DNA from: Pseudobdellovibrionaceae bacterium
Lineage (GTDB): Bacteria > Bdellovibrionota > Bdellovibrionia > Bdellovibrionales > UBA1609
DNA: 33,954 nt
Direction: 5' to 3'
Assembly (NCBI GenBank): GCA_030591685.1
Contig: JAUVAX010000027.1
Location: forward strand, 1 to 33,954
The notes beneath the pieces are model-generated. The model saw only the letters and a list, made by a program, of their open reading frames with translations, ran no database searches and had not been told where the DNA came from. Positions 10,483-25,997 of the stretch are shown here, piece after piece (position 1 is the stretch's first letter; each line of letters opens with the position of its first letter). The translations under genes and the position numbers were made by a program.

Positions 10483-10638
10483 GGGTTTTACCCTAAATAT
10501 AAAGATGCGTCATATATAAAAACTTAATAAATACAGCTAGATAAAGACACACTTTCAAGTGATCTATACCCTTATAGGCCCCTGCCGCCTTGCCGATAAG
10601 GGTGTGTGCATACACGCATTACAGGGATTGGGTCATTT

Positions 10639-16326: not shown

Positions 16327-17430
16327 ATGAACATCCTACAAGTCGGTAAATACTCTCCATCTGCTTCTGGAGGTATCGAATCTGTTATTTACAAATTAAC
16401 AACCGGTCTTTGTAAAAAAAAATATACCTCTACAGTTATTTACTTTGAGTCAAAAAAGTATAAACCTATACGCCCTGAAGCCTATAACGCAATACATATC
16501 CCTGAAACTATAAATATCTTATCAAACCCTTATAATTTAAATTATCAAAAAAAATTATTACATCATATTAATAATGCTGACATCATACATCTGCACACAC
16601 CACATCCATTAGCCGAATATATTATTAGCAAATGTTCTTTTAAGGCTCCCCTAGTGACAACTATTCATGCTGATATAAATCGGTCCCCTTTAATTGAGAG
16701 CCTTTACCACAAGCTCAATTTGAAAATTTTAAATAAATCTAAAGCTATCACTGTAGCCTCACCCCATCATCTCAAATTTATTAAAAACCTCCGTGGGTTT
16801 GAGGCTAAAACCACTGTCATACCGTTTGGCACAGAGAGCTACCTATCCCCCCCTCAACCCCTCAAACATAGTGTTTGTTTTGTGGGTCGGCTGGTGAGCT
16901 ATAAAGGTCTTGAAACCCTAATAAAGGCTCAATTAAAGACCAATTGCCTTTTGCAAATTGTAGGCAGCGGCCCTGATGAAGGCCTGTTACGCAAGCTTGC
17001 CCTTCGCTTAGGGCTCAATCAAAGAATTCAATTTATGGGCAATCAAACCCCATTAGAAATAAAAAAAATACTCGCCCAGTCAAAAGCACTTGTATTGCCC
17101 TCAATAAATCAAAAAGAATGCTTTGGCATGGTCCTTATTGAAGCCCTCTCAGCAGGGGTCCCTGTTATAACCACACGGTTGGGCACTGGTGTTGACTTTG
17201 TAAATCAACACTTTAAAACTGGCATCACTACACCCATCAACCATCAAGACCGCCTTTCTGAAGCCATTAATTTAATCACTGAAAGCCCACAACTTAGAGA
17301 TGAGCTATCAAAGGGCGCATTAAAGCATTATGAAAACTCATTTACAAAAAAACAAATGATAGATAGTTTTGAAAAATTATATTTTGATTTATTTAATCCA
17401 TCGACAGAACATATAGTAAATAGCCTTTAG
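16327..17430 (+). CDS. Glycosyltransferase, GT4 family
   Basis: The frame extends upstream to a TTG at 16273, but the ATG at 16327 is chosen: it begins the usual GT4 N-terminus (MNILQVGKYSPSASGGIE), and it follows the preceding stop after one base. That gives 367 residues in a GT-B fold. The N-terminal domain carries the GGIE loop, and the C-terminal domain has GRLVSYKGLETLI, GSGPDEGLL and the EX7E motif ECFGMVLIE. It probably adds the second sugar after the WecA-like enzyme, to which it is tightly linked. The final 42 bases overlap the 3' end of the convergent nucleotidyltransferase gene. Confidence 0.88.
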   Translation: MNILQVGKYSPSASGGIESVIYKLTTGLCKKKYTSTVIYFESKKYKPIRPEAYNAIHIPETINILSNPYNLNYQKKLLHHINNADIIHLHTPHPLAEYIISKCSFKAPLVTTIHADINRSPLIESLYHKLNLKILNKSKAITVASPHHLKFIKNLRGFEAKTTVIPFGTESYLSPPQPLKHSVCFVGRLVSYKGLETLIKAQLKTNCLLQIVGSGPDEGLLRKLALRLGLNQRIQFMGNQTPLEIKKILAQSKALVLPSINQKECFGMVLIEALSAGVPVITTRLGTGVDFVNQHFKTGITTPINHQDRLSEAINLITESPQLRDELSKGALKHYENSFTKKQMIDSFEKLYFDLFNPSTEHIVNSL

Positions 17431-18315
17431 CTTTGAATCAAACAATAAAAACTTAATTACATAGTATTTTAATCGAGAGCTCCTTGGCCTTAGTAAGAAA
17501 TTTTTAGTCACAAACCAATTTAAACATAAATTATTTTGTTTGCTTTTAAATAAGTTGCATTTAAAACCTAATCTTTTAAATGCAATATCTATAGCGCAGA
17601 ATGAGTTTATTAATTTATTTTTTTTAAAAAGCACTAAAAGCTCTTTTTGTTTGATCTTAGAGCTGTATTTCTCAATAAACAAAGTGATGTCATAAAAATG
17701 CAATAAGTCCTCAAAGGTATTTAAAAACGACCAGTGTACACATAAGTAAAATAGCTCTAGTGTGGGGTCGAGCAATTTGTACTCCTGTGACTCGCTATCT
17801 ATAGTTAACCCTTGCCCCTTGGCCTCTATCCAAAAGGCCCTTGTATGAACCTCTAAATGTATTTCTAATAAATTCACATGAGCTTTGTAATCTGTTTTAA
17901 ATTCATCACCTAACCATCTTTTTTGATGCACTTGAGTAAAGCCAATACTCTTTAGCCCCGCTGTGAACTTTTGAAGTCCCTGGGGGGCGACGAGCAAATC
18001 AACATCAGACATTGGTCTAGCTCCGTAATTGGTATATACACCCCTAAGAAGCAAACTCACCCCTTTAAAGGGAAGCATGCTACCACTCCCCCCAATCACC
18101 TTATAAAGTGATTTATAAACCTCAAGTGAGGTCAAGTTAATAAGCCGATTAGAGGCCCAATGGGGTTTGAATTCATCTATAGAAAACAACTCAAACAAAA
18201 GACCTTGAAGCTTATGCTCAACAATTATTTGCCTATCTGATGAGTTTAACTGTGCCCCTCCAAGAGACGGCAACAGTTGCAGTAGGTTATTTTTAATATA
18301 ACTGATCTCTGGCAA
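17389..18315 (-). CDS. PF14907-type nucleotidyltransferase, lasso-cluster associated
   Basis: A 308-residue protein with the nucleotidyltransferase signature of the uncharacterised NTP_transf_5 group: PFKGVSLLLRGVYTNYGARP then MSDVDLLV (the Asp-x-Asp metal site), and later EIHLEVH. The start is TTG at 18315, six bases after AAGGGA. Members of this family occur in paeninodin-type lasso peptide clusters together with an HPr-kinase-like protein, and in some exopolysaccharide loci. Here it faces away from the ABC transporter genes (divergent, 46 bases between starts) and overlaps the GT4 gene tail-to-tail by 42 bases. The substrate is unknown; nucleotidylation of a phosphorylated product is a guess. 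Confidence 0.8.
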   Translation of the reverse strand: MPEISYIKNNLLQLLPSLGGAQLNSSDRQIIVEHKLQGLLFELFSIDEFKPHWASNRLINLTSLEVYKSLYKVIGGSGSMLPFKGVSLLLRGVYTNYGARPMSDVDLLVAPQGLQKFTAGLKSIGFTQVHQKRWLGDEFKTDYKAHVNLLEIHLEVHTRAFWIEAKGQGLTIDSESQEYKLLDPTLELFYLCVHWSFLNTFEDLLHFYDITLFIEKYSSKIKQKELLVLFKKNKLINSFCAIDIAFKRLGFKCNLFKSKQNNLCLNWFVTKNFLLRPRSSRLKYYVIKFLLFDSKLKAIYYMFCRWIK

Positions 18316-18361
18316 AACTAATCCCTTGACGCTAACGCCGAAAACAATTGTACTTTTACTT

Positions 18362-19012
18362 ATGAACCATCATTTAGCAGTATCCATTGATAATCTATCA
18401 TGGTCGTATAAGGACTTAAAAGTATTATCTGCAATTCATTTACAAGTTTCTAGGGGTCAAACTATCTGTATCCACGGGCAAAATGGGTCGGGCAAAACGA
18501 CACTCTTAAAAATCATTTCAGGACTTTTAATACCTCAAAAAAAAAGTGTTGTTATAAATAACATTTGTACCCTTAAACACGGAAAAAAGGTAAGAAAACT
18601 AATTAGCTGGTCTCAAGCCAGCGACACTGGTTTTTTTAATTACCTCACTGGTTTTGAAAATTTAAAATGTTTTTACTTGTTATCTAATAACGATGAACAG
18701 TACTTTTTAAACGAACTTAAAAAAATGAAAGTTCACCCTATAGTTAATAAAACACTCAATTCCAAATATATTGATATGTCCACAGGCATGAAGCAAGTTT
18801 TAAGTTTTTTACGTGGGTATATCACCGAGCGGCCCCTTGTGTTGCTGGACGAACCTACCAGGTCCCTCTCTACCGAAATGCAAACATTAATTATTAAATG
18901 CATTAAAAACAAGGACCCTGGCAAGACCTTTATTATAGCCTCTCATAATGCTGAGCTCATCAACTCGTTTAAAAAATATACCCTTACAGATGGTCATCTA
19001 AAATGTTTATAA
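18362..19012 (+). CDS. ABC transporter ATP-binding protein
   Basis: The frame is open from a TTG at 18326, but the ATG at 18362 is preferred since it begins normal ABC sequence (MNHHLAVSIDNLSWSY) and leaves promoter room against the divergent gene; 216 residues. Walker A is GQNGSGKTT, the Q-loop region lies near SWSQAS, the ABC signature is degenerate (DMSTGMKQVLSFLR), Walker B is PLVLLDEPT, and the H-loop is IIASHN. The length and simple architecture resemble CcmA-like or drug/lipid ABC-2 ATPases. It overlaps the permease gene by ten bases. It is placed to energise export of the lasso-machinery product or a glycan; which one is not shown by sequence. Confidence 0.9.
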   Translation: MNHHLAVSIDNLSWSYKDLKVLSAIHLQVSRGQTICIHGQNGSGKTTLLKIISGLLIPQKKSVVINNICTLKHGKKVRKLISWSQASDTGFFNYLTGFENLKCFYLLSNNDEQYFLNELKKMKVHPIVNKTLNSKYIDMSTGMKQVLSFLRGYITERPLVLLDEPTRSLSTEMQTLIIKCIKNKDPGKTFIIASHNAELINSFKKYTLTDGHLKCL

Positions 19013-19812
19013 TACTTCGGCTACTGTTTAAAAATACATATAAGTATACGACGCCAACGCCATTAGTATATCTCAGTGATGTTTTTTCAATTGTGTTTAC
19101 ACTTATAATTTACAATTTAACGAGCAAGGCCCTAACCCCAAGCTTATCGGCTCACTACAACTGGCACTCACAGGATTACTTTACCTTTATTGTTATTGGA
19201 GAGCTCATATTAAGCGCTCCCATCTTATTTTTTGAGAGCCTCCCCAGGTCATTAAAAATGCATATATTCGATGGGAGTTTTACACACCTAATACTCAGCA
19301 AATCAGGCCCCGCAAAAGTGCTTATAATAAGTACTTTGAGCTTTCTCCCTAGAGAATTATTATCAACCTTTTTGTTATTTATGATCGCTAAAATCAGCTT
19401 TAACTTGAATGTTTCACCAAGTGATTTTGTGGCAATTATTATGTTACAGCTAGCTTTTCTGCCTAGCCTTCTTGCACTGAGTTTTATTATGAGTAGTCTT
19501 ATTTTATTAATGGGTCGAGGGTACGGGAGTGCTAGCCAGCTGGGCCTTGGGATGACTCTTTTAGCCGGGCAGTACTTCCCCATTGATGTATTGCCTGAAA
19601 CTATAAAAAAAATATCTGAACTACTATTGCCAACAACTGCGCTTATGCAAATTGGTCGTGAGCTTATCTCTGGAAGTTATGTTATTAATTTCATGCACAT
19701 AGGCACCATTTTACTATGGGCCCTCTTTTTATTACCACTTAGCATATATGTTTTTAACCAAACCTTAGAGTACAAACTAAAAAAAGGGTCTCACTTTACT
19801 TTTTATATTTAA
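19003..19812 (+). CDS. ABC-2-type transporter permease
   Basis: A 269-residue protein with about six hydrophobic helices and the family's conserved C-terminal segment (AGQYFPIDVLPETIKKIS, then LLPTTALMQIGREL). It is the membrane partner of the ATPase whose gene overlaps its start by ten bases. It would form a homodimeric half-size exporter with no peptidase or substrate-binding domain. Its stop is separated by a single base from the stop of the convergent leader-methyltransferase gene, leaving no room for a terminator between the operons. Confidence 0.88.
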   Translation: MFIILRLLFKNTYKYTTPTPLVYLSDVFSIVFTLIIYNLTSKALTPSLSAHYNWHSQDYFTFIVIGELILSAPILFFESLPRSLKMHIFDGSFTHLILSKSGPAKVLIISTLSFLPRELLSTFLLFMIAKISFNLNVSPSDFVAIIMLQLAFLPSLLALSFIMSSLILLMGRGYGSASQLGLGMTLLAGQYFPIDVLPETIKKISELLLPTTALMQIGRELISGSYVINFMHIGTILLWALFLLPLSIYVFNQTLEYKLKKGSHFTFYI

Positions 19813-19813
19813 A

Positions 19814-20917
19814 TTAATGAGATAGTTTTTTTAATAACTCTTTTGATAATGGTATTGAGTCAAAACTGCACTGATCCACTAATAACTCACCGTCTTTTAC
19901 AACCGACCATCTCCAAAGAGGAGAGTCAAAGGTCAGGTTTTGGTACATCCCGATTTTTACCTGTATTTGATCCCCTTGCTTTAAAGACAAGGTTTTATCA
20001 AAAGGTAAAAATATCTCCTGCCACAAATCATGATCTAATTCTAAAGGTGGTTTTGTGGATAAAAAGTTCTCTTTATCGTGTAAAAAACTATACCAACCCA
20101 TAAAACCTGTCATTACTGAGCTTCTGTTAATAGTAAAATTCATTTGCCACTCAAGATGATCCGACACTTTATCGGTTAAACATATCGGCTCACACGTATG
20201 ACCTTCAGCCATAGACTCTTTACCTGTAAACACAGAGTAAAGGGGGTGGTTAGCGGCCATTTCTCTAAGAGCACTAAAATCAAAACCAAATTTACTCGAT
20301 GACCAAAAATTAACCGTGTCCTCATAAAATGTTTTTACATCTACGGGAGTAAAATTTAACTGCAATTGATCCGGTATCACGCTCCCGCCGGGTTTTAAAA
20401 ATCTCATGGCAGCATCAGGCAAGCTCTCTATTGTTCCTAAAAACCCAATGTTTGTAACAATCACATCGACCTTTTCTGGCAATTCAACCTCTAAAGAGTC
20501 TCCGTATATAAATTCTATTTTTTCACTCATACCATTGTCTATGGCTACTTTTTTGGCCAGTTCAATAATTGGCTTAGCTTCAATGGCATACACCTTACTC
20601 GCCCCTAAGCGTACCGCATACATGGCATGAAGACCTGAGCCCGAGCCCAAATCTAAAACAACATCCCCTGGCTTAATGGCTCTTTGCATTTGAGTTAAAA
20701 AACTCTCCTGACAAAGGCGATCGCCCAATAAAACTCTATGTTCTTCAATTTCAGGGGCCGAAGTAATGCACATTTTTTTACTCGCCGGAAAGGCCCCACC
20801 ATCAGTTTTAGATCCCATACTAAAGGTCCGAGTAAATTCTTTAACTGATCCAAATTTAGTTAATTTTGGCTGAGCATAAGTTTTTTTAGTCTCTTTTTGC
20901 TTATCTTCAGAACTCAT
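19814..20917 (-). CDS. PRMT-like SAM methyltransferase with an N-terminal lasso-peptide leader
   Basis: 367 residues in one uninterrupted frame. The ATG at 20917 has a strong AAGGGG Shine-Dalgarno, so the N-terminal extension is really translated. Residues 14-29 (YAQPKLTKFGSVKEFT) match a lasso leader, with Y14, P17, L19, G23 and T29 at the canonical Y-17/P-14/L-12/G-8/T-2 spacing. Cleavage at the canonical place, after Arg30, would make Thr31 core residue 1 and Asp39 core residue 9. From about residue 55 the chain is protein-arginine-methyltransferase-like: HRVLLGDRLCQESF, SAM motif VLDLGSGSG (87-95), Glu114, NIGFLGTIES in place of the double-Glu loop, and a beta-rich C-terminal half. It is the last gene of the operon, after cyclase C. 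The substrate is unknown. Confidence 0.85.
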   Translation of the reverse strand: MSSEDKQKETKKTYAQPKLTKFGSVKEFTRTFSMGSKTDGGAFPASKKMCITSAPEIEEHRVLLGDRLCQESFLTQMQRAIKPGDVVLDLGSGSGLHAMYAVRLGASKVYAIEAKPIIELAKKVAIDNGMSEKIEFIYGDSLEVELPEKVDVIVTNIGFLGTIESLPDAAMRFLKPGGSVIPDQLQLNFTPVDVKTFYEDTVNFWSSSKFGFDFSALREMAANHPLYSVFTGKESMAEGHTCEPICLTDKVSDHLEWQMNFTINRSSVMTGFMGWYSFLHDKENFLSTKPPLELDHDLWQEIFLPFDKTLSLKQGDQIQVKIGMYQNLTFDSPLWRWSVVKDGELLVDQCSFDSIPLSKELLKKLSH

Positions 20918-20934
20918 GTGCTATCCCCTTAATA

Positions 20935-22494
20935 TTACCTATTGATGATTTTTTCTGCGTAATAGAGTTTCAAAATTTGATCAATGTTTGTATTATTACC
21001 CAAATCCTTAAATAATTCATTAACACGTTGTTCATCGATGACGTTTCGCATTACAAAATGTCCCCTCATCAGTTTTACTTTTAACTCATCCCTCTTCATA
21101 GATATTTGCTCAGATCTAATTATAGAGTAGTCCTGCTGGCTACGATGCTCAATTATTGAGCTCGGCAATAGGGTCTTTGACGCCTCTCTTAATATACATT
21201 TATCTCTCCCTCTCCATGTAAACGACTCAACATTTAAACCCATACACCAATTAATAATATCCATATCCAACAAGGGGTAGCTCATAAGTTGACCATAACT
21301 CAAAGCCTGCTGCTGCTCCATAGCCATTGCAAACTGATAAAATCCTGAACTAAAAAACCGATTAAAAATTGTTTTTTGAACTGCATTTTTGTTAAATCTC
21401 TTTTGTAAACCTTTAAAGTTTTTAGAGCTCCCATTATTTTTTATATCCTTAATAAACTGTGGCACCACGCCCTTTGCTAAAAGAGTTATCAAATCAAAAG
21501 TCTTTAAATTTCTATTCTCTTTTTCAAAAAAAATATCTTTTACACGTCCCTGCTTTAACAAATCACTCAAAACATAATTGTCCATTGAAAATAAATCATC
21601 TCCCCCCAGTCCTGTTATAATGTACTTAATCCCATCAGTAGCGGCGCTTTCTAATAGCGGAGCAAAAAGGGTCAACGTGGGATCATAAAAAACACTTGAA
21701 TGAGGCTCTCTACTGATTTCAGCCCTAAGATCATCATATTCAAATACCTGATTATTGAGTTTACAAAAATCAATAACTTGTTTTAAGGCCCAATACTCAT
21801 CGGCCTCACTGTGCCCTGAAAACCTCAATGAATATGTCTTTAAAACTTTAGCTTCTCTTTGTATTAAAGAGGCTAGAAGGCTCGAATCAAAGCCACCACT
21901 TAACAGTAAACCAACATCAAAACCTTTGGCTCTGCGTAATATGGATTTTTGTAACAAACCTTGAAGCTCATTAGTCAATTCAGCTAACGACTTACCCCTA
22001 TGACATACCGGTGACAACCTGAGCGTCTCAATGAAGCCTTCACCACCTTCACTCACTCGAACAATTGTACCAGGAGGAGCTTTTTTAATGCCTTTATAGG
22101 GCGTTTTAGAAAGGCCAGAGAAGTCCTCATTGTATATTGAGAGTAAGTATTCAAAATCGTAATTTTCACCCTCTAAGAGCTCCTGCAAGTGACTACTTAC
22201 AATAACTCTATCTTTAAATACTTTATAAAAAAGTGGTACAACCCCAAGCGTGTCAGTAGATAAAAGTGTCTCATTTTTTAAGGGCAAACTTAATGCTAGA
22301 GCAAATTCACCTTTAAATTGTTGTACTATTTTCTCACCCTGAGCTTCACAAAGCAACAATACGTCACCTTCAGGGCTTCCTGTGGGCTGTAAATCAAAAA
22401 AACTTATGAGCTCAGAAAGGTTAAATATACGACCGGTGAGATGCACCAGACTAGAGCTAGCAAAGGGGCATTCAATCATGTCGCTAGCACTCAT
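20935..22494 (-). CDS. Asparagine-synthetase-like lasso cyclase (C protein)
   Basis: The frame opens at TTG 22500; the ATG at 22494 is taken as start (519 residues), overlapping the B2 stop. The N-terminal half resembles the class II glutaminase domain, but the nucleophilic Cys2 is absent (the protein begins MSASDMIEC), so glutamine hydrolysis is not expected. The synthetase half has the ATP-binding PP-loop LLLSGGFDSSLL and ITGLGGDDLFS. In lasso pathways such proteins adenylate an Asp or Glu side chain and close the macrolactam. Its position directly after B1 and B2 supports that role. The alternative is another amide-forming function in glycan decoration, which is less likely without Cys2. 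Confidence 0.82.
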   Translation of the reverse strand: MSASDMIECPFASSSLVHLTGRIFNLSELISFFDLQPTGSPEGDVLLLCEAQGEKIVQQFKGEFALALSLPLKNETLLSTDTLGVVPLFYKVFKDRVIVSSHLQELLEGENYDFEYLLSIYNEDFSGLSKTPYKGIKKAPPGTIVRVSEGGEGFIETLRLSPVCHRGKSLAELTNELQGLLQKSILRRAKGFDVGLLLSGGFDSSLLASLIQREAKVLKTYSLRFSGHSEADEYWALKQVIDFCKLNNQVFEYDDLRAEISREPHSSVFYDPTLTLFAPLLESAATDGIKYIITGLGGDDLFSMDNYVLSDLLKQGRVKDIFFEKENRNLKTFDLITLLAKGVVPQFIKDIKNNGSSKNFKGLQKRFNKNAVQKTIFNRFFSSGFYQFAMAMEQQQALSYGQLMSYPLLDMDIINWCMGLNVESFTWRGRDKCILREASKTLLPSSIIEHRSQQDYSIIRSEQISMKRDELKVKLMRGHFVMRNVIDEQRVNELFKDLGNNTNIDQILKLYYAEKIINR

Positions 22495-22855
22495 ACTCAA
22501 AAAGAGTTTTATATTTTACGGATTCATCCATGTTATAAATTTTATTATTCAAAAACACCCACGCGTGAGCCCTAAAGAAGGGTTTGGGTTGTACTCCTAA
22601 GCAAAGCCTTGATCGACCCTTAATACCGCAAAAAATAACTAAACTTGAAACTAAACAGGCGCTTTGAAACCGTCTTGATATTTGTTGCGAGGTCTTTATG
22701 AAGAACTCTACATTTTCAGGGGATAACTTTATTGAAATAATTTTTTTAAGATTTTTTGAAAAAGAAAATAGCCGTTTAGGGCTATAAATATATAAAAGAA
22801 AAATAAAAGTAAAACTCAGAGCAGCAACATGGATTAAAATAAGCCCCTTCTTCAC
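22484..22855 (-). CDS. Lasso peptide B2 protein (transglutaminase-like leader peptidase)
   Basis: A 123-residue protein with an N-terminal hydrophobic helix (about residues 4-23), suggesting membrane tethering. It has the B2 catalytic pattern Cys67 in SACLVSSL, His97 in RAHAWV and Asp110 in YNMDE. B2 enzymes cut the precursor after the leader, recognising the Thr at -2. The ATG overlaps the B1 stop (ATGA) and its own stop overlaps the cyclase start, so B1, B2 and C look translationally coupled. The length is close to the usual size of about 140 residues. Confidence 0.85.
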   Translation of the reverse strand: MKKGLILIHVAALSFTFIFLLYIYSPKRLFSFSKNLKKIISIKLSPENVEFFIKTSQQISRRFQSACLVSSLVIFCGIKGRSRLCLGVQPKPFFRAHAWVFLNNKIYNMDESVKYKTLFEYEC

Positions 22856-23115
22856 TGAAGAAGTTCGTTATTTTTTAATTCCTCAATGAGGCGCTTTAAA
22901 TGAGCCTCAGCAGTCGTTGCTTCAACATCATAATTATCGCAAATAGTGTTAATAATTGTGAGTTGATCTGTATTAGACTCTATTAAAGTCCAAATATCAG
23001 TACCTACTGGGTCTAAACCAAAGTAAAAACCAGTTTTAAGGTTCAGTAAAATTTGCTCACCCTGAACCGTTTTTGACACGACATCTTTATTGATTTTTAA
23101 CTCAGTGATTTCCAT
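22852..23115 (-). CDS. PqqD-family lasso B1 protein (RiPP recognition element)
   Basis: An 87-residue stand-alone PqqD-like domain: a beta-strand region with VQGEQILLNLKTGFYFGLDPVGTDIW, then helices (TIINTICDNYDV, AEAHLKRLIEELKNNELL). This winged-helix fold binds the YxxPxL part of lasso leaders and presents them to B2. The only such motif in the window is in the methyltransferase three genes downstream (Y14, P17, L19), making that protein the predicted ligand. The gene lies between the kinase-like gene (40-base gap) and B2 (four-base overlap). Confidence 0.88.
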   Translation of the reverse strand: MEITELKINKDVVSKTVQGEQILLNLKTGFYFGLDPVGTDIWTLIESNTDQLTIINTICDNYDVEATTAEAHLKRLIEELKNNELLQ

Positions 23116-23155: not shown

Positions 23156-24070
23156 TTACTTGATGCTGCGTGCAATGCGCTCCAAAGACTCCTGATTTTT
23201 TAAATAGCTCAATTTACACACAGGGACCTTAAGCAGAAAATCTGTAAGTTGGCTCAACTCATTTGCCGCCTTTTGACCTGAAACATCGATTCTATAAATA
23301 TTATCCAATATTTGTGGCCAAATAGATTGAGTCTCTTGGCTCATATTACTCGGATGACCGCATAAAGGTGGTCTTGAGTCTAATAAAAATACTTGCTTAA
23401 TTTTACTAGAGCTTAAAGCAAACATTTCTCCCACACTCAGCCTGACTTTCCCACAATGAGTGTTGGTGATTTTTTTTAAGTGACTCGTCACTTCACCATT
23501 ATCATTGAGTCGAATTTCTGAAAAACTTGACTGTGCCTCGTAGCCATCCAGTGAAGGACGCACCCAGACCGCATCATCCGAAATCAACATAAAGCCTTGA
23601 GTTACTAAGTAATGGGCAATTGTAGATTTACCACTACCAGAGGGGGCCACAAACACATAGGCCCTCCCCTTTTTATCGCACACAGCACTTGCGTGCAACA
23701 CAAGCTCTCCACTGAGCTGAAGCCATAACGGAATGACCTGGTTCATTAATAGACTCTCAACAGAAGCCAAAGGTGCATTCATATTTGAAATGATAATTTC
23801 TTTAAGATTCTTGTTTAAATAAAAATCGGCAATGTTTGGAATATGACAAATAAAAAAATCATTAGCCTCGCCGTACTCACACCACAATTGGTTGTCCTCT
23901 TCTATGTGATGGTACCAATTTATTTTTTCTGCAGTGAACTGTGAGTTTATGGAGATTTTTATATCAACATCTCCATCAAAGGCCGATTCAGAAGCATGTG
24001 GGAGCAAAAAATGAGACTCAATATTTAGACCAAAAGGCTTATAGAAAAATTTATTCACCTTTAAATCCAT
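23156..24070 (-). CDS. HPr-kinase-like P-loop protein, lasso-cluster associated
   Basis: The frame is open from TTG 24091. The ATG at 24070 (MDLKVNKFF) is preferred; 304 residues, overlapping the AsnB stop by 20 bases. The N-terminal half is unrecognised. From about residue 120 it resembles HPr kinase: LVLHASAV, Walker A APSGSGKST (142-150), then FMLISDDAVWV with the paired Asp165/Asp166. Members of this group in paeninodin clusters phosphorylate a Ser in the lasso product; related proteins also occur in exopolysaccharide loci. Its target here is unknown. Ser or Thr residues of the leader-methyltransferase N-terminus are candidates by inference only. Confidence 0.8.
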   Translation of the reverse strand: MDLKVNKFFYKPFGLNIESHFLLPHASESAFDGDVDIKISINSQFTAEKINWYHHIEEDNQLWCEYGEANDFFICHIPNIADFYLNKNLKEIIISNMNAPLASVESLLMNQVIPLWLQLSGELVLHASAVCDKKGRAYVFVAPSGSGKSTIAHYLVTQGFMLISDDAVWVRPSLDGYEAQSSFSEIRLNDNGEVTSHLKKITNTHCGKVRLSVGEMFALSSSKIKQVFLLDSRPPLCGHPSNMSQETQSIWPQILDNIYRIDVSGQKAANELSQLTDFLLKVPVCKLSYLKNQESLERIARSIK

Positions 24071-25997
24071 ATTTTCTGCGCCAACTCTCAAAGATTAAAA
24101 CATCCCATAATTTATACTGATAATTTGCCTTTTGAGATGAATGATCCAACCACTTGGAGCGAATAAGGTTCACATTAAATAGCCCTGAATCAGACAACGA
24201 GCTCTCGCTTAATAAATCCTCAGCCCAATCTCTGAGGTCACCTCTGAGCCAATCTTCGATAGGTACTCCAAAACCCTTTTTAGGGCGATCAATTAATTTT
24301 TGAGGCACATACTTGTTGAGTACTTGCCTTAAAAGCCATTTAGATTCGTTATCTCGTATTTTATACTTTTCCTCTAAGGGCCAAACGTGCTCAATGAGTC
24401 GACGGTCAAGCAAAGGGGCTCTTGATTCTAAGCTAGAGTACATGCTCGCTCGGTCCACTTTTACCATTATATCGTCTGGTAGATAGGTCATAGAGTCTAA
24501 ATACATCATTTCTTGAGTGAAACTCACGAATGAATGCCTCTGACTATCAAAGAGGGTTTTATTTAAAACGTCATCTACGCCAAGGACTACGCTCTCATTG
24601 TACCAATGACTTATTAAAGTTTCATACATTTCAAGAGGCTTATTTAGTTTTAAAAATTTTTCGATTTTATAAAGTTTCTGACCAAAATCATGTACTTGAT
24701 AAGCCTTCGGGAGCGTCCACTTAAAAGTTTGATACAAAGTGTCCCAAGTGTTTTCAGAAAATAGTTTAATTATAGTTGCGCCAAGGCCCCGACCTATCCC
24801 GGGCACAGAGCGCAACTGTCCCCATAGTTTATCAACCCAAAGGTATCGATTATAACCACCAAAAAGCTCATCCCCGCCATCACCTGATAAACTCACAGTC
24901 ACATGCTCTGAGGTCATTTGACTTAACAGTACTGTTGGGATCTGAGAGGAGTCCGAAAAGGGCTCATCATAAATTTCTGGTAAACGATCAACTATACCAA
25001 GGATTTGACTCGGGCTCACTATAAGCTCAGTATGGTCAGTCCCTAAATGTTCAGCGACGGCCCTTGCGTAATTAGACTCATCATATTGCTTTTGTTCAAA
25101 TCCAATTGTGAAGGTTTTTACTTTATCAGGGGAAACCTTTTTCATAATAGCAACAATTAAAGATGAATCTATGCCCCCTGATAAAAAGGCTCCTAAGGGG
25201 ACATCCGACACCATTTGGCTCTCAATAACTTCAGTGAGTTTATCCTCAAAGCCGTCAACTATCTGGCTATCCGAAAGATCACTTTCTATAGGGTGCAAAC
25301 TATCGCTAAGGCTCCAATAAGGCATTGGCACCATCTCAGTATTTGGAGAAGATAAGTCCACCTCTAAATATGTACCCGCTTGTAGCTTAAAAATATTTTT
25401 AAAAATACTTCTTGGGCCAGGGACATAATTATGCCGCAAAAACAGGCGCAAAGACTCTCTGTCAATTAAAGGGCTAAAATTTTTAATTGTAAAAAAAGCT
25501 TTAAGCTCTGACGCAAATAAAAACTCCCCATCAACCCAGCCATAATAAAGCGGCTTTTCTCCCATAGCGTCCCTTGAGAGAAACAAAGAGTTTAGCTCCG
25601 AATCCCATAGAGCAAAAGCAAACATACCCGTAATTTTAGTTAATGCCACTTTTAAACCATGAGCTTCAATGAGAGCTAATAAAACCTCCGTGTCAGAGTC
25701 ACCAGAAAAAGTATGACCTGACTTTAATACCTCTACTTTTAAAGCCCTATAATTATATATCTCCCCATTGTATACCAGCGTATAGCGCTTCGATTTAGAC
25801 TTCATTGGTTGAGCGGCATGGGTGCTTAGATCAATAATCGAGAGCCTATTATGAACAAAAGTTAGCCCAGTTTTATTGCTCCATATTCCCTGATCATTAG
25901 GGCCACGATGATTAAGTGCCTTTAAAAAGCACTGAGCGCGCCCTTCGCGGTCCTCGTCTGATAAATAATTGCTAAAAAAACCTGAGATCGCACACAT
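24051..25997 (-). CDS. asnB: Asparagine synthase-type glutamine amidotransferase, glycan-associated
   Basis: 648 residues with both domains intact. The class II glutaminase domain has nucleophile Cys2 (MCAISGFF), HNRLSIIDL, NGEIYNY (77-83) and GDSDTE. The synthetase domain has FLSGGIDSSL (PP-loop 273-279), SLSGDGGDELFGGYNRY and the VKVDRASM region. It can therefore make an amide from glutamine, unlike the Cys2-less cyclase C in the same operon. Its placement beside GT4 and flippase genes, with a HexNAc uronate pathway nearby, suggests a WbpS-like role amidating a uronic acid. Ordinary asparagine synthesis or a lasso-related role cannot be excluded. It starts three bases after the GT4 stop. 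Confidence 0.87.
   Translation of the reverse strand: MCAISGFFSNYLSDEDREGRAQCFLKALNHRGPNDQGIWSNKTGLTFVHNRLSIIDLSTHAAQPMKSKSKRYTLVYNGEIYNYRALKVEVLKSGHTFSGDSDTEVLLALIEAHGLKVALTKITGMFAFALWDSELNSLFLSRDAMGEKPLYYGWVDGEFLFASELKAFFTIKNFSPLIDRESLRLFLRHNYVPGPRSIFKNIFKLQAGTYLEVDLSSPNTEMVPMPYWSLSDSLHPIESDLSDSQIVDGFEDKLTEVIESQMVSDVPLGAFLSGGIDSSLIVAIMKKVSPDKVKTFTIGFEQKQYDESNYARAVAEHLGTDHTELIVSPSQILGIVDRLPEIYDEPFSDSSQIPTVLLSQMTSEHVTVSLSGDGGDELFGGYNRYLWVDKLWGQLRSVPGIGRGLGATIIKLFSENTWDTLYQTFKWTLPKAYQVHDFGQKLYKIEKFLKLNKPLEMYETLISHWYNESVVLGVDDVLNKTLFDSQRHSFVSFTQEMMYLDSMTYLPDDIMVKVDRASMYSSLESRAPLLDRRLIEHVWPLEEKYKIRDNESKWLLRQVLNKYVPQKLIDRPKKGFGVPIEDWLRGDLRDWAEDLLSESSLSDSGLFNVNLIRSKWLDHSSQKANYQYKLWDVLIFESWRRKYGFKGE

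Follow-up and report, generated by a model that had tools for sequence, protein, structure and literature searches.

The question raised by this locus is whether a methyltransferase that begins with a lasso-peptide leader is itself a substrate of the maturation genes in its operon, or whether the leader is a docking tag that brings the enzyme to the leader-binding protein B1. The gene lies in a stretch of 33,954 nucleotides that was analysed as a whole (the window; features in Table 1), and it is a real feature: a lasso precursor fused to an enzyme, present in two genera of the Bdellovibrio phylum. We put at roughly 60% the probability that the fusion is a natural join of a complete lasso-type precursor and a PRMT-fold methyltransferase, and a substrate of its own K-B1-B2-C enzymes.

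The open reading frame, its coordinates and residues and the strong Shine-Dalgarno sequence described in the first-pass annotation were all borne out, with the AAGGGG duplex at -8.3 kcal/mol against a median of -2.5 at internal ATGs. The lasso-leader spacing it had proposed is exact, and the N-terminus of the fusion holds the positions that mark a lasso leader (Y-17, P-14, L-12 and T-2). The strict leader motif occurs once among the 27 proteins of the window, in the fusion, and arises by chance in about 2-4 per 100,000 shuffled 60-residue stretches. Additionally, the NCBIfam model NF033528 (lasso_cyano) matches residues 11-39 with an E-value of 2.6e-6 and a score of 27.3 bits, which lies under its curated cut-off of 33; because this model was not tuned on the fusion sequence, its E-value is a better gauge of chance than the motif count. 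A search of the fusion's own genome with NF033521 gave no match, but as the controls were likewise without a match this result carries no information.

The resemblance to lasso precursors runs past the leader, a point that had gone unremarked, as residues 31-48 can also be aligned with stand-alone lasso precursors. In the resulting layout T31 takes core position 1, S33 position 3 and D39 position 9, followed by GGAFPxxKK, so that both fusions carry an Asp within the range (positions 7-9) at which an Asp or Glu is expected of a lasso core. To our knowledge, Thr is not common at core position 1 of lasso peptides. Homologues of the methyltransferase that lack a leader have their first residue opposite about M49, so that the junction between precursor and enzyme falls at about residue 48/49, and the stand-alone precursors of another genome of the phylum (G331) align with residues 8-51; therefore residues 1-48 look like a whole precursor. 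Judged from these alignments, the simplest account would be the in-frame joining of a precursor gene and a methyltransferase gene at this junction. An AlphaFold model of the fusion, built from a two-sequence input, had a mean pLDDT of 52, with residues 1-66 all below 50, and was too weak for a fold search.

Table 1. Features of the fusion gene and its cassette (positions in the window)
Feature	Position	Strand	Length	Remarks
Fusion gene	19814..20917	-	367 aa	Lasso-type precursor (residues 1-48) and PRMT-fold methyltransferase (residues ~49-367)
Shine-Dalgarno sequence of the fusion gene	20925..20930	-		AAGGGG
Leader	20828..20917	-		Residues 1-30; Y14/P17/L19/G23/T29 at -17/-14/-12/-8/-2
Core-like segment	20774..20827	-		Residues 31-48, TFSMGSKTDGGAFPASKK; residues 31-51 71% identical to L021
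Candidate 9-residue macrolactam ring	20801..20827	-		T31 (position 1) to D39 (position 9); placed by distance from T-2 and alignment
Ser33	20819..20821	-		Core position 3; candidate site for the cluster kinase
PRMT-fold SAM methyltransferase domain	19814..20773	-		Residues ~49-367; motif I VLDLGSGSG; N156 replaces the first double-E Glu
C	20935..22500	-		Asparagine-synthetase-like lasso cyclase homologue; SGGFDSS; N-terminal amidotransferase domain reduced
B2	22484..22855	-		Transglutaminase-like leader peptidase; NF033537 above cut-off; Cys and His invariant
B1	22852..23115	-		PqqD-like leader-binding protein (RRE); GxYxGL...IW motif
K	23156..24091	-		HPr-kinase-like protein; GSGKST, DD
N	17389..18315	-		NTP_transf_5 nucleotidyltransferase, as in kinase-type lasso clusters
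ABC-2 type transporter ATPase	18326..19012	+		Conserved in the second cassette
ABC-2 type transporter permease	19003..19812	+		Conserved in the second cassette

The genes K, B1, B2, C and the fusion gene all lie on the minus strand, overlapping or separated by gaps of at most 40 bases; the ABC-2 ATPase and permease genes face the fusion gene, with the NTP_transf_5 gene beyond. The B1, B2 and C genes expected of a lasso cluster are present with their catalytic or binding motifs (B2 Cys/His, C SGGxDS/T and GGDD, B1 GxYxGL...IW), and K retains its P-loop. B2 matches NF033537 above cut-off, while B1 and C match lasso models below cut-off. The cyclase C is divergent and has lost much of its amidotransferase domain, most of all in the second cassette described below, the usual lasso ABC exporter is replaced by the ABC-2 pair, and no gene of the cassette encodes a protease that could make a second cut. 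The cassette is embedded, in both genomes, in an exopolysaccharide locus, with a WecA-like gene on one side and a Wzc-like gene on the other (window 12437-33525; L021 4571-16158). In the window, the start of K is overlapped by a second asparagine-synthetase-like gene (24051-25997), of the XrtA/PEP-CTERM type with TIGR03108 below cut-off; in L021 no such gene adjoins K.

Across 369 genomes of the phylum, one further fusion was found (L002/L021). It comes from another genus within the family, and its contig, L021, belongs to the MAG Bdellovibrionales bacterium HKST-UBA10. Its cassette has the same genes in the same arrangement (K, B1, B2, C, fusion, ABC-2 pair, N), and the two fusions are 48% identical. 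The first-pass annotation had named loss of the Y/P/L/T positions in homologues as evidence against its reading, and this sole close homologue keeps all five leader positions, together with S33, D39, GGAFP and KKMCI. In pairwise comparison the core segment (residues 31-51) is 71% identical, computed over 21 positions, the leader 59% and the methyltransferase domain 45%, compared with 28-31% for B1, B2, C, K, N and the ABC genes; by this measure the precursor part is the best-conserved piece of the cassette. The set of fusions comprises these two cases, both from draft genomes. Two narrow patterns applied to genome contigs recovered only the L021 case, and no fusion was found in viral contigs. 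PRMT-like methyltransferases found on plasmids by tblastn were considered as further fusions and rejected, as the matches mostly began at residue 60 or later and neither of two annotated neighbourhoods that were inspected is a lasso cluster; the leader-core part alone had no match among the plasmids. In L021 the fusion shares its first 22 codons, in a different frame, with the tail of the cyclase gene (10557-10623), such that one stretch of DNA encodes both leader and cyclase tail.

The short stand-alone precursor gene that is usual for lasso clusters was not found here. There is no room for one between the cassette genes, an all-frame motif scan of the window and L021 matched the fusion alone, and a leader-core profile matched only the fusion gene in the two genomes (G000 and G011). 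A separate short precursor, likewise named beforehand as evidence against the proposal, was thus not found in either cassette or either genome by motif scan and profile, the latter built from four sequences that include both fusions. In G331 the same profile gave a pair of stand-alone precursors as its only significant matches. The G331 cluster (L041, 7497-9113 and 11407-12090) is an ordinary lasso cluster with an ABC transporter, B2 fused to N (NTP_transf_5), B1, C, K and two short near-duplicate precursors, one of them PYHSPQLKSLGSLTELTQ/AKGGTRTDGASPKTK... Leader and core align column by column with the fusion, with ten invariant columns that include Y, L, G, T, D and P. It differs from the fusion cassettes in its two stand-alone precursors, its fused B2-N, its predicted 8-residue ring (the ring Asp is at position 8, compared with 9 in the fusions) and in that no methyltransferase was seen adjoining the precursors. 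Short lasso-like precursors of the form MKKYQKPVVVKLGSVxLIKG[SN]KNVKSD..., with Ile at -2, occur in further clusters of the phylum, in L042 (5231-5347), L044 (7440-7601) and L045 (12240-12371), a type described from Bradymonadales (PMC10368454).

The METHYLTRANSFERASE domain of the fusion matches the PrmA and PRMT_C models as well as PRMT1 structures. The SAM motif I is intact and the PRMT C-terminal domain is present (PF22528 above cut-off; PRMT1 PDB match E 2e-24), and thus the fold and SAM motif of the "complete SAM methyltransferase" of the first-pass annotation stand, but the PRMT substrate site is altered. PRMT1-type arginine methyltransferases share fold and SAM motif with the fusion, but of their two double-E glutamates the first is replaced by Asn in both fusions, whose loop is also shortened by four residues compared with homologues from the phylum (TN-IGFL----GTIE in the window and AN-LGFL----GSLE in L021, compared with SEWxGH...E in L023-L025). 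The fusion core is also without any Arg. For these reasons arginine methylation is unlikely, and the fusion probably does not encode an arginine methyltransferase. In the PRMT-like proteins encoded at L023 1375-2409, L024 1414-2370 and L025 1465-2412 the double-E (SEWxGH...E) and THW motifs are both intact, and on these motifs the proteins are candidates for true bacterial arginine methyltransferases.

Several other explanations of the fusion were weighed. The leader may only bring the methyltransferase to B1, with the enzyme modifying a separately encoded peptide and residues 31-48 acting as a linker. Such an arrangement would draw on a common RiPP strategy, the joining of a recognition part to a tailoring enzyme, and a leader by itself suffices for RRE binding through its YxxP motif. 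It is nonetheless unlikely: no separate precursor was found in the cassette or in either genome, conservation is higher over residues 31-51, which can be aligned with real cores, than over the leader, and the T-2 required for cleavage is retained. The docking-tag alternative of the first-pass annotation is therefore weakened by the core-like segment that follows the leader, with Asp at 9 and Ser at 3, which is the most conserved stretch. Its other option, that the operon acts on the enzyme itself, gains from the conserved leader and from the failure to find a separate precursor, but was incomplete in that a whole precursor is fused and not a leader alone. Alternatively, the N-terminus may derive from a precursor without yielding a lasso, such that the maturation genes clip or modify the enzyme (e.g., for activation) and no threaded ring forms. 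The exopolysaccharide setting in both genomes, the 29% identity between the two C proteins and the loss of most of the amidotransferase domain in the C of L021 are consistent with this, but it is a quite unlikely explanation given the conservation of D39 and S33 at core positions 9 and 3 and the SGGxDS/T and GGDD motifs that C retains.

The junction could also allow two products from one gene, if translation began internally at M49 or if slippage occurred at codons 47-49, in the A7 run, giving a free methyltransferase or a short precursor. Both M49 and the A7 run are kept in the two fusions, and the -1 frame ends after 7 codons in the window and 17 in L021. Conversely, the Shine-Dalgarno duplex at M49 (-3.1) does not stand out from those of other internal ATGs (median -2.5), runs of A7 or longer are ordinary here (42 in 31 kb) and the -1 peptides are not conserved, which makes this very doubtful. 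An assembly error that joined a precursor gene to a methyltransferase gene might be suspected from the A7 run at the junction and from the draft state of both genomes, one at low coverage (~3.4x), but is scarcely credible when two separate assemblies from different genera share the same in-frame junction, with KKMCI conserved across it.

The fusion resembles the borosins in that precursor and methyltransferase form one polypeptide. The core of OphMA is C-terminal, unlike that of the fusion. OphMA, a borosin with its precursor fused to a methyltransferase (PMC11285071), also differs in its methyltransferase family and has no lasso machinery; nor is the fusion enzyme a borosin-type alpha-N-methyltransferase, as it matches PrmA/PRMT and no borosin model is among the Pfam and NCBIfam matches listed. 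Kinase-type lasso clusters (paeninodin, pseudomycoidin and Bradymonas bsf) share K, B1, B2, C, in some cases N, and the YxxPxL leader; both K and N have been described as tailoring genes in such clusters, with N fused to B2 in some Firmicutes (PMC8498205). These clusters have a separate short precursor, whereas here it is the N-terminus of a methyltransferase, and a fused ABC exporter in place of the ABC-2 pair. In Bradymonas, BsfA carries a Ser at core position 3, as do both fusions, and BsfK phosphorylates this core Ser3 (PMC10368454). The lasso methyltransferases StspM, LasF and the PIMT-type LihM are SAM methyltransferases within lasso clusters as well, but are separate proteins of other subfamilies that target the C-terminus or the ring Asp and are not fused to a precursor. 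According to the accounts of Zong 2016 in PMC8498205 and PMC13352647, lasso enzymes accept engineered proteins fused to the tail of a lasso core; astexin-1-sfGFP, as described there, likewise places a lasso core before a folded protein in one chain, but is artificial, whereas the present fusion is natural and carries an enzyme. In the papers searched, neither a natural fusion of a lasso precursor with an enzyme nor any mention of this cassette was found.

Taken with these systems, the fusion is most likely the precursor of its cassette, with a tailoring enzyme carried in cis in a borosin-like manner. We infer every chemical step of the maturation, including cleavage, ring closure and the fate of the methyltransferase. 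B1 would bind Y14, P17 and L19 of the leader, K may phosphorylate S33 (core Ser3), B2 would cut after R30 and C would close a 9-residue ring between the amino end exposed at T31 and the D39 side chain. The C-terminal methyltransferase need not block ring closure, because engineered core-tail protein fusions are matured by lasso enzymes. Held beside the core, the methyltransferase could modify it in cis, or in trans within a dimer, and a further cut near K47-K48 would release a small product that the ABC-2 transporter could carry.

The presence of the ABC-2 pair speaks for export of a small product. Without the cut near K47-K48 the enzyme would keep the lasso at its N-terminus; core and enzyme are strongly conserved together and no second protease is present, as would fit an enzyme from which the modified N-terminus is not removed. 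A natural lasso-capped enzyme, for which B2 and C would form a macrolactam ring at the N-terminus of the methyltransferase, the enzyme's own chain would thread this ring and the mature product would be a folded enzyme with a mechanically interlocked N-terminus, is a tentative and rather unlikely outcome. Several observations also count against the precursor model. A core this conserved is unusual for a secreted lasso peptide, and the Thr at core position 1, the missing protease for a second cut, the ABC-2 pair and the divergent cyclase C do not favour it. There are, further, two fusion genes only, and the absence of a separate precursor comes in part from a profile that contains both.

Should the fusion be matured as proposed, lasso enzymes would act in nature on a protein of ~360 residues, as so far shown only with engineered fusions. 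The borosin-like joining of substrate and enzyme would then have evolved twice, on the second occasion within a lasso pathway and with another kind of methyltransferase, and searches that rely on short precursor open reading frames would miss such clusters.
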